Shown here piece after piece: positions 1-1,770 of a stretch of 64,000 nt of DNA; the stretch's first letter is position 1; every line of letters starts with the position of its first letter. The DNA lies in assembly GCF_000428765.1 (NCBI RefSeq), contig NZ_AUAO01000001.1, positions 434,001 to 498,000 on the forward strand, given 5' to 3'. Origin of the DNA: Brevundimonas aveniformis DSM 17977. Its GTDB lineage: Bacteria > Pseudomonadota > Alphaproteobacteria > Caulobacterales > Caulobacteraceae. The notes below the pieces were generated by a model that ran no database searches, was not told the DNA's origin, and worked only from the letters and a program-made list of their open reading frames with translations. A program made the position numbers and the translations under genes.

Positions 1-398
1 CCATCGGGAATATGGCTCTTGCGATAGACGCCCAGGGCCTCGCCATCAGCATCCAGCATGACCAGGGAATTGTAATACTGGGGTCCGTCGCGCTCGAAGA
101 TCGAGACAGGGATTGCGATCCCCAGCTCCCGGGCCACCGAAGCCAGCTGAACCACGCACGGATGCTCGCGCCACGGATGGGCGTGGGCAAACCAGTGCTC
201 CTCCTGGCTGACACAGAAATAGGGGCCTTGAAACAGCTCCGACGGCAGGACGACCTGGGCCCCGCGATCCGCCGCCTCACGGATGAAGTCGATCGTCTTG
301 TCGATATTGGCCTGGAGGTCATCGCCATAGGAGGTCTGGATGGCGGCGACGGAGATCGAACGAGTGACGAGTGACGAGTGGCGAGTGGCGAGTGTCAT
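1..398 (-). CDS. aguB: N-carbamoylputrescine amidase, N-terminal part (runs off window start)
   Basis: Nitrilase-superfamily enzyme that hydrolyses N-carbamoylputrescine to putrescine, CO2 and ammonia, the step after agmatine deiminase. About 132 residues are visible. The nitrilase Glu lies in LPSELFQGPYF (E54) and the catalytic Lys in YRKSHIPD (K127); the catalytic Cys would lie outside the window. The ATG at 398 overlaps the TGA of the upstream four-helix-bundle gene (ATGA). The first 13 or so residues (MTLATRHSSLVTR) are encoded entirely by a 7-bp tandem repeat, so they are an acquired extension; the conserved fold starts near residue 15 (SISVAAIQTSYG). The neighbouring aguA at 787-1770 supports the pathway assignment. 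Confidence 0.9.
   Translation of the reverse strand, partial: MTLATRHSSLVTRSISVAAIQTSYGDDLQANIDKTIDFIREAADRGAQVVLPSELFQGPYFCVSQEEHWFAHAHPWREHPCVVQLASVARELGIAIPVSIFERDGPQYYNSLVMLDADGEALGVYRKSHIPD
361..395. repeat. Left heptamer array, five CGAGTGR/T units
   Basis: Five contiguous 7-bp units read CGAGTGA twice, CGAGTGG twice and CGAGTGT once. They lie inside the 5' end of aguB and end at the ATGA junction with the four-helix-bundle gene. They are inverted relative to the array at 758-788, so the small gene is bracketed by outward-matching inverted repeats. Confidence 0.9.
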
Positions 399-790
399 GG
401 GCGACGCGCTTCCAGTTTGGCGATCAGCGAAGCCAGCATTCGGCTAATTTCGTCGGAAGATTGCAACAGAGGCTCAAGCGCTTCTGTCGAAAGATAGGAC
501 AATTGCTCGGCGAGGAGCATTTGCGTCTCCACTTCGGCTAGCGAGCCCCTAGCGATCGAGAGGAACCGCACGAAGTCGCCGGTTGCTCTCCGCGCGCAGC
601 CCTCGGCGATGTTTGACGGGACAGAAACAGCGGCGCGCCGAACCTGACTGACTAGCCCAAATCGTTCATCCGTGGGCCAGCCGCTGCTGGCCTGATAGAC
701 CCCGCGCACCAAGGCCATGGCCTTCTGCCAAACCCGGAGTTCCCGGTAGTGACGAACCTCGCCACTCGCCACTCGCCACTCGCCACTCAT
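395..790 (-). CDS. Four-helix-bundle protein (23S rRNA IVS-protein family)
   Basis: 131 residues with the typical pattern of the TIGR02436/S23-type four-helix-bundle family: YRELRVWQKAMALV near residue 15, RRAAVSVPSNIAEG in the middle, and FLSIARGSLAEVETQ towards the C-terminus. The family is named from proteins encoded in 23S rRNA intervening sequences and is structurally related to the Avd accessory protein of diversity-generating retroelements; its biochemical role is unknown. It is inserted between aguA and aguB. Its ATG (790-788) overlaps the aguA stop and its TGA (397-395) overlaps the aguB start, both as ATGA. The first residues (MSGEWRVASGE) are translated from the right heptamer array. 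No reverse transcriptase or rRNA lies nearby. Confidence 0.9.
   Translation of the reverse strand: MSGEWRVASGEVRHYRELRVWQKAMALVRGVYQASSGWPTDERFGLVSQVRRAAVSVPSNIAEGCARRATGDFVRFLSIARGSLAEVETQMLLAEQLSYLSTEALEPLLQSSDEISRMLASLIAKLEARRP
758..788. repeat. Right heptamer array, four CTCGCCA units plus partial
   Basis: Four perfect CTCGCCA copies (758-785) followed by CTC. The reverse complement is a rotation of the CGAGTGG unit in the left array at 361-395, giving an inverted pair around the four-helix-bundle gene. The array forms the first codons of that gene and abuts the aguA stop codon. Confidence 0.9.
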
Positions 791-1770
791 TCCGGCTCCT
801 GCTGGCTGATACAGTGGAACGAACCGCCCCCGGTCAGGATGGCACTCGAGGGCAGGGCGATGACCTCCCGATCCGGGAACAGATCGGCCAGAACCTCGAC
901 GACCAGGCGCACGGCCGTCTCGTTTCCATAGGTCGGAACGATGACGGCCCCATTGGCGATCAGGAAGTTCATGTGGCTGGCAGGAATGACCGCGCCATCC
1001 GCATCGACCTGACGGCCCGGCGACGGAATACGCACGACGTCGAGCCCGGCCTCGGCCAGGTCCTGAGCGCAGGCATCATAGACCCCCGCGTTTGGATCAT
1101 CGATCCCAAAGGCGATCGGACAGGCCACCACACCCGGGGCAACGAAACGGGCCAGATTGTCGACGTGGCCATCCGTGTGGTCGTTGAGAAGCCCGTCACC
1201 CAGCCAGACGACCCGTCGCGCGGCCAGGGCTTCGATCAGCGCAGCTTCTGCAATCGCCTCATCCCAGCCGCGATTTCGGTTTGGGTTCAGCACGCACTGG
1301 CGCGTGGTCAGGATCGTCCCGTCTCCGCCATGGTCCAGCGCACCGCCTTCCAGAATAAAGTCATGCCGGTCCAGCGGCACGCCTGACGCCTCTCCGATCT
1401 GGGCGGCGACGGTGTCGTCATACGCCAGCTCGTACTTGCCACCCCAGCCGTTGAAGCGAAAAGCGGCGGCCCGGCGCGAGCCCGGACCAAAGATGGGGCC
1501 GGTATCCCTGAGCCAGATGTCACCGAACCGCCCGGCCACAACCTCGACGCCGGCGACATCAGCAAAGCGCCCTTGAGCGTCGGCCAGGGCCTCCGGCTTG
1601 CCGACCAGCAGACGCACGCGCTCGCGCCCGGCTCCGGCCAGGGCCCGGACCAACGCTTCCACCTCGTCTTGCGCCGGTGCGAGGTTCTCTTCCCACAGCT
1701 CTTCGTGGCTGGGCCAGCCGACCCACATCGCCCGGTGTGGCGACCATTCAGCGGGGATGATCCCGGTCAT
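787..1770 (-). CDS. aguA: Agmatine deiminase
   Basis: Peptidyl-arginine-deiminase-family enzyme that converts agmatine to N-carbamoylputrescine and ammonia. At 327 residues it is slightly shorter than many homologues. It carries FGDIWLRDTGPIF, the substrate-binding acidic and His region (WLGDGLLNDHTDGHVDN), and the catalytic Cys near the C-terminus in GGGSFHCIS (C320). The start MTGIIPAEWSPHRAMWVGWP matches the usual family N-terminus. It is the first gene of an aguA, four-helix-bundle, aguB transcription unit with 4-bp overlaps, so translation is probably coupled through the inserted gene. Confidence 0.95.
   Translation of the reverse strand: MTGIIPAEWSPHRAMWVGWPSHEELWEENLAPAQDEVEALVRALAGAGRERVRLLVGKPEALADAQGRFADVAGVEVVAGRFGDIWLRDTGPIFGPGSRRAAAFRFNGWGGKYELAYDDTVAAQIGEASGVPLDRHDFILEGGALDHGGDGTILTTRQCVLNPNRNRGWDEAIAEAALIEALAARRVVWLGDGLLNDHTDGHVDNLARFVAPGVVACPIAFGIDDPNAGVYDACAQDLAEAGLDVVRIPSPGRQVDADGAVIPASHMNFLIANGAVIVPTYGNETAVRLVVEVLADLFPDREVIALPSSAILTGGGSFHCISQQEPE

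Follow-up and report, generated by a model that had tools for sequence, protein, structure and literature searches.

Does a small gene lodged between two genes of the agmatine pathway belong to their operon, or is it, together with the repeats on either side of it, a mobile element? The question arises from a 64,000-nucleotide stretch of the Brevundimonas aveniformis DSM 17977 genome (the whole of which we call the window), where an original prediction described an S23 gene between aguA and aguB, bracketed by inverted heptamer arrays, and proposed that gene and repeats form a small mobile unit. The features concerned, with arms named in the sense of the S23 gene, are:

787-1770, minus strand: aguA, agmatine deiminase (PF04371, E=1e-96); its stop codon TGA and the S23 start overlap in ATGA.
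758-788, minus strand: 5' arm, four tandem heptamers GAGTGGC/CGAGTGG, beginning at the aguA stop codon.
395-790, minus strand: S23/23S_rRNA_IVP four-helix-bundle ORF of 131 aa (PF05635, E=4.5e-39; TIGR02436).
361-395, minus strand: 3' arm, five heptamers in inverse complement, lying within the 5' end of aguB.
3-398, minus strand, running off the window: aguB, N-carbamoylputrescine amidase, 5' part only (PF00795, E=2e-21).

The order on the minus strand is aguA, S23, aguB, with an ATGA overlap at each junction, so that the arrangement first described, with its arrays of five and four heptamers, is indeed present. The 361-395 array comprises five CGAGTGR-type units, the last being CGAGTGT, and the 758-788 array four units inverse to these. 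Complementarity between the arms is 86-100%, according to which stretch is compared, and the 64 kb contain no other period-7 runs. Both are translated, the 5' array as the N-terminus of the S23 protein and the 3' array, lying within aguB, as an N-terminal extension of its product. The S23 ORF is a full-domain profile match (133 bits to PF05635, cut-off 33.8; 129 bits to TIGR02436), and its protein has solved relatives in 2gsc (XCC0516, E=1.9e-27) and 2rld. The family is under purifying selection (median dN/dS 0.12, 92 pairs), which indicates that the protein matters. As in rRNA intervening sequences (IVSs), an S23 ORF lies between inverted repeats; the window unit, however, sits between aguA and aguB and not within an rRNA gene.

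PF05635 is found in 64 of 121 Brevundimonas genomes and in none of 14 control genomes. At 86 of the 90 Brevundimonas loci with usable flanks, an inverted repeat spans the S23 flanks with a score above the 99th percentile of shuffles. The score between upstream and downstream flanks has a median of 22 for a locus's own pair, compared to 8 for swapped and 8 for shuffled pairs. Period 7 is present in 68/90 upstream and 68/90 downstream flanks and in no shuffled flank; seven and its double are the only periods enriched. At the agu locus, own arms score 22.8, as against 12.7 for arms swapped between species, and S23 genes in about 20 other contexts of the genus have the same architecture.

The pattern extends well beyond the genus. 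A profile search of GTDB genomes provided a wide set of 80 S23 loci from about 20 phyla, 77 of which were scored (one, L135, is a Brevundimonas record that corresponds to a genome of the genus set). The inverted repeat is present at 43 of these 77 loci compared to 1 of 417 displaced windows with equal spacing and the same score threshold; period 7 is seen upstream in 47 and downstream in 39, and the upstream arm is rich in G and has AGK as its core. Across both sets, 87 loci have arrays on both sides: in 57 the two arms carry an identical heptamer, and in 78 they differ by at most one change. When arms are swapped, only 3.6% are identical. The displaced, swapped and shuffled controls rule out chance repeats, and we conclude that the S23 gene plus inverted heptamer arrays is a recurrent unit in many bacterial phyla.

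The heptamer itself varies from locus to locus, with only the AGK core in common; there is no fixed terminal inverted repeat of the kind that defines a classical transposon or MITE, and in the wide set any motif beyond AGK barely exceeds the null (information content, IC, 3.40; the highest null value is 3.39). The expectation that S23 flanks elsewhere would show inverted arrays, and relatives empty sites, was borne out; the expectation of CGAGTGG arrays was not, since the heptamer differs by locus and turns over while the arms remain matched.

If gene and arms are a mobile unit, then filled and empty states should be found among relatives. The agu junction is empty in seven relatives examined, holds S23 with CGAGTGG arms in eleven, and holds S23 with other arms in others; about 26 congeneric agu loci examined contain S23, co-directional with its neighbors. 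In two congeners (L034 and L036) the junction is occupied by another ORF, about 125 aa long (TLFRPVGDTELALI...), which has neither a Pfam match nor heptamers: this junction takes other genes too. The hypothesis that the agu junction was filled only once is not rejected (p-AU 0.18), so the differing arms may reflect replacement in place, not new arrivals. Sites c15, c16 and c18 occur in S23-filled, S23-less hairpin and/or empty states in relatives; at c16 the S23-less form (G029) begins with the same unusual unit, TAGGGAATAGGCAG, as the filled form (G004). Across different loci, S23 identity predicts heptamer similarity (r=-0.385 for all between-locus pairs; permutation p=0.002 on representatives), and a clade of S23 genes with the heptamer AGGCAGT is found at at least four loci. 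That related S23 genes at different loci have heptamers in common argues that the arms travel with the gene.

The clearest insertion is on a plasmid. Trichormus variabilis plasmid C carries 428 bp that interrupt a site otherwise 98% identical to an empty site on a Nostoc linckia plasmid, with GTAAT, a 5-bp direct repeat that includes a TAA stop, at each end. The same element occurs on a Scytonema plasmid with one arm 14 bp shorter, and related elements (78-82% DNA identity) are found at two other loci of Nostocales plasmids, three unrelated loci in all, with similarity that stops at the arms. A target-site duplication of constant length was not found at the three S23 sites and one hairpin insertion compared: the S23 sites show GTAAT, TTCTA (possibly part of the array), and no duplication with a 6-bp loss, and a hairpin inserted in an S23 gene shows no duplication. 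This apparent inconstancy would speak against a classical DDE transposon. As to a phage vehicle, S23 has a match in none of 50,697 phage records. Empty sites in relatives, heptamers that follow S23, and near-identical filled and empty plasmid sites all support the small mobile unit first proposed, on a broader scale than was proposed. Taken together, these comparisons give good support to the mobility of S23 gene and arms as one unit, which probably moves without a known mobility enzyme of its own.

The placement of the unit is regular. In the genus, 43 of 45 scored left-hand genes run in the direction of S23; relative to the point where the arm starts, their stop codons fall between 17 nt before and 36 nt after, mostly within 12. 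For the wide set the co-directional fraction is 41 of 51, and in 31 of these 41 genes the stop falls in the range -24 to +17 nt (gene calls in both sets are based on GC3 or ORF length, and individual cases may be wrong). Convergent genes on the right also tend to have their stops toward the 3' arm, at or within it. In general, the unit targets the region around the stop codon of an upstream gene that runs in the same direction as S23. Insertion at ATGA start/stop junctions, as originally supposed, gives way to this stop-codon rule, ATGA coupling being a property of the agu junction. The notion that arrays serve as cassettes with stops in all frames was rejected: heptamers of the genus contain stop codons more often than their letter-shuffled counterparts (18/27, p=0.001), the wide set shows no such excess (18/42, p=0.43), and the CGAGTGG heptamer contains no stop codon.

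Arrays are also found without S23. In the source genome, CGAGTGRCGAGTGR occurs 11 times and the reversed pattern never. Three more CGAGTGG pairs, convergent and about 90-110 bp long, are present without an S23 gene, one near ribosomal protein genes, one inside an ABC-F ORF and one intergenic. The inverted arrays around a second S23 gene (C4:206408-206722) consist of another heptamer, GGGAGTA. Contig C4 (240 kb of the 2.58-Mb genome) holds all three S23-less pairs as well as this second S23 gene. Across the genus, CGAGTGGCGAGTGG is found in 60 of 121 genomes and the reversed pattern once in total. Repeats independent of the family, which the original prediction would have counted against itself, do formally occur, with CGAGTGG arrays in 22 of 57 genomes that have no S23; but the pairs are convergent, as short derivatives would be. 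In eight genomes for which places were listed, 16 pairs of neighboring arrays are convergent and none divergent, with spacers of 27-125 bp, the outcome expected for short derivatives of the S23 unit. The mean number of CGAGTGG array matches per genome is 18 where the cognate agu S23 is present, 3.8 where there is only other S23, and 1.7 where there is none (Mann-Whitney p=8e-6 and 9e-8, with genomes treated as independent and relatedness uncorrected).

Some S23-less hairpins lie in frame within protein genes: an ABC-F ORF (L009, L251), thiC (L245, L247) and a mutL-like gene (L244). They add peptides such as SGEWRVASGE...PLATRHSPLA at the same position across species, with differing spacers. 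Such in-frame insertion, the mark of Rickettsia palindromic elements, is a trait of the S23-less derivatives and not of the window copy. The S23 gene of a Nostoc plasmid (L335:880-1560) is itself split by a hairpin that lacks S23 and whose arms are those of the local S23 family; L321 contains a truncated S23 copy. At one intergenic site upstream of the 'MTKVLIIGAGHAGG' gene (L215, L217, L220, L223), arrays are present in four species with varying lengths and spacers.

On balance, we consider it reasonably probable that the locus belongs to a widespread kind of small mobile DNA unit consisting of an S23 gene within inverted heptamer arrays. Such a unit would insert with S23 oriented as the host gene, at the latter's stop codon or beside it; this placement would do little damage to the host gene and leave S23 readable from host transcription. 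The two arms could pair into a hairpin with S23 in its loop. Arrays would lengthen, shorten and turn over through slippage, with the arms held matched by a process at the level of DNA. Internal loss of S23 would leave short, persistent hairpins, and since S23-less hairpins are also seen at new places, these are probably mobile in trans. We infer that the S23 protein may recognise the arm hairpin, and that host replication and repair enzymes, not a reverse transcriptase or Y1 transposase, would do the cutting and copying. No match to reverse transcriptase (PF00078) is encoded anywhere in the source genome, in line with what was first noted for the window; supply of the enzyme in trans was rejected on this ground and because S23 is not enriched in RT-bearing congeners (16/31 versus 48/90). 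A RAYT acting in trans was likewise rejected: the Y1 transposase (PF01797) is absent from the source genome and found in just 4 of 121 congeners. It should be said that the support comes from sequence comparison, and that the unit encodes no nuclease or polymerase.

The main rival makes the hairpins primary: they would come about at gene ends, and spread, through polymerase slippage and template switching, with S23 a passenger or a hairpin-binding settler of loops, and there would be no single transposing unit. We regard this as unlikely, although it accommodates a good deal. It accounts for S23-less hairpins of several heptamer types at identical orthologous sites, and hairpins with other heptamers at some relatives' sites also fit colonisation of pre-existing hairpins by S23; yet the plasmid insertion put both arms and the gene together into an empty site. 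Arrays are present in S23-free genomes, as slippage would allow, but heptamer copy number peaks where the cognate S23 is present. The matching of arms without G.U bias is what intrastrand template switching would yield, and in the P6b loop of the Nostoc tRNA-Leu intron heptamer stems are replaced without S23 (PMC4476775); close S23 relatives at different loci nonetheless have the same heptamer.

A second alternative places selection at the level of RNA, the arms being favored for pairing in the transcript and RNase III cutting out the S23 loop, as in 23S rRNA. It has precedent in the Coxiella IVS, which RNase III excises; this IVS has a stem of 28 bp, and tandem heptamers precede its S23 ORF (PMC4990558). 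The units share S23 and inverted repeats with rRNA IVSs, and they run in the same sense as their host genes. We nevertheless think it improbable. Arm mismatches are as often A.C as G.U (89 G.U versus 80 A.C in the genus, 100 versus 99 elsewhere, 189 versus 179 overall), unlike tRNA stems within these same loci, with 30 G.U and 0 A.C (a count made with a tRNA finder that itself favors G.U), and this parity suggests that pairing is maintained at the DNA level. Hairpins are found, moreover, between convergent genes and inside coding genes. Finally, that S23 is an ordinary agmatine-pathway operon gene with incidental simple repeats, a reading already disfavored, is very improbable: its recurrence, co-directional, at some 26 congeneric agu loci and the purifying selection on it would suit such a gene, but other relatives' aguA-aguB junctions are empty or hold a different gene, and the same architecture surrounds S23 in about 20 other contexts of the genus.

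Returning to the mobile unit, a wider proposition may be put forward tentatively, and we give it somewhat less than even credence: that a pan-bacterial class of mobile DNA, which lacks a transposase and inserts at stop codons, has S23 proteins as its recognition factors and is the source of many heptamer repeats and hairpins, the rRNA IVS being only its best-known placement. On the mobile-unit reading itself, the S23-bearing IVSs of 23S rRNA would be such units lodged in rRNA. Three matters would come together: what the very common S23 genes do, why heptamer repeats are in excess in bacteria, and where rRNA intervening sequences come from. The mobile DNA so described would follow a strong stop-codon placement rule and have no mobility enzyme that can be recognised.

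How does the unit compare with known systems? Avd proteins of diversity-generating retroelements are four-helix-bundle relatives of S23; such retroelements have a reverse transcriptase, and the source genome has none. The IVS of Coxiella burnetii 23S rRNA (about 430 nt) has an S23 ORF between complementary ends and tandem heptamers, of strain-variable copy number, upstream of the ORF (PMC4990558). The present unit is alike in these ends and heptamers; it differs in its position after the stop codons of protein genes, in having heptamer arrays as both arms, and in showing no sign of selection for RNA pairing. Rickettsia palindromic elements are hairpins of about 100-150 bp, found in frame in unrelated protein genes (PMC10969869); the S23-less hairpins are likewise in frame, but have no conserved consensus and are tied to an S23 gene.

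Heptamer simple repeats have been described before: GGGAATC in Xanthomonas, with 70-75 convergent inverted pairs, and GGGGA(C/T)T in Nostoc (PMC4692102), TAACTGA in Beggiatoaceae (PMC4679880), and stems swapped for other heptamers in the Nostoc tRNA-Leu intron P6b (PMC4476775). Period, similar units, convergent pairs and heptamer replacement all recur here; the available portions of these articles make no link to S23, and among open-access journal articles no paper came to light that connects heptamer arrays with S23 genes, rRNA apart. The Beggiatoaceae repeat TAACTGA, read on the opposite strand, is TCAGTTA, a unit in the S23 arms of L153, which suggests that the Beggiatoaceae repeats may derive from S23 units. 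PMC4679880 discusses an unidentified repeat-binding protein, possibly the mobile element; S23 is a concrete candidate for it.

The closest working analogue is the REPIN/RAYT pair (PMC3116915). There too, inverted repeat pairs with a short spacer are scattered through the genome and also found around a single protein gene, and repeat type tracks protein type; dispersed pairs of just this form are present here. The S23 unit differs in having no Y1 transposase domain and in a repeat that is a tandem heptamer, varying by locus. On our best reading, it is an IVS-type, transposase-less mobile unit with REPIN-like derivatives.
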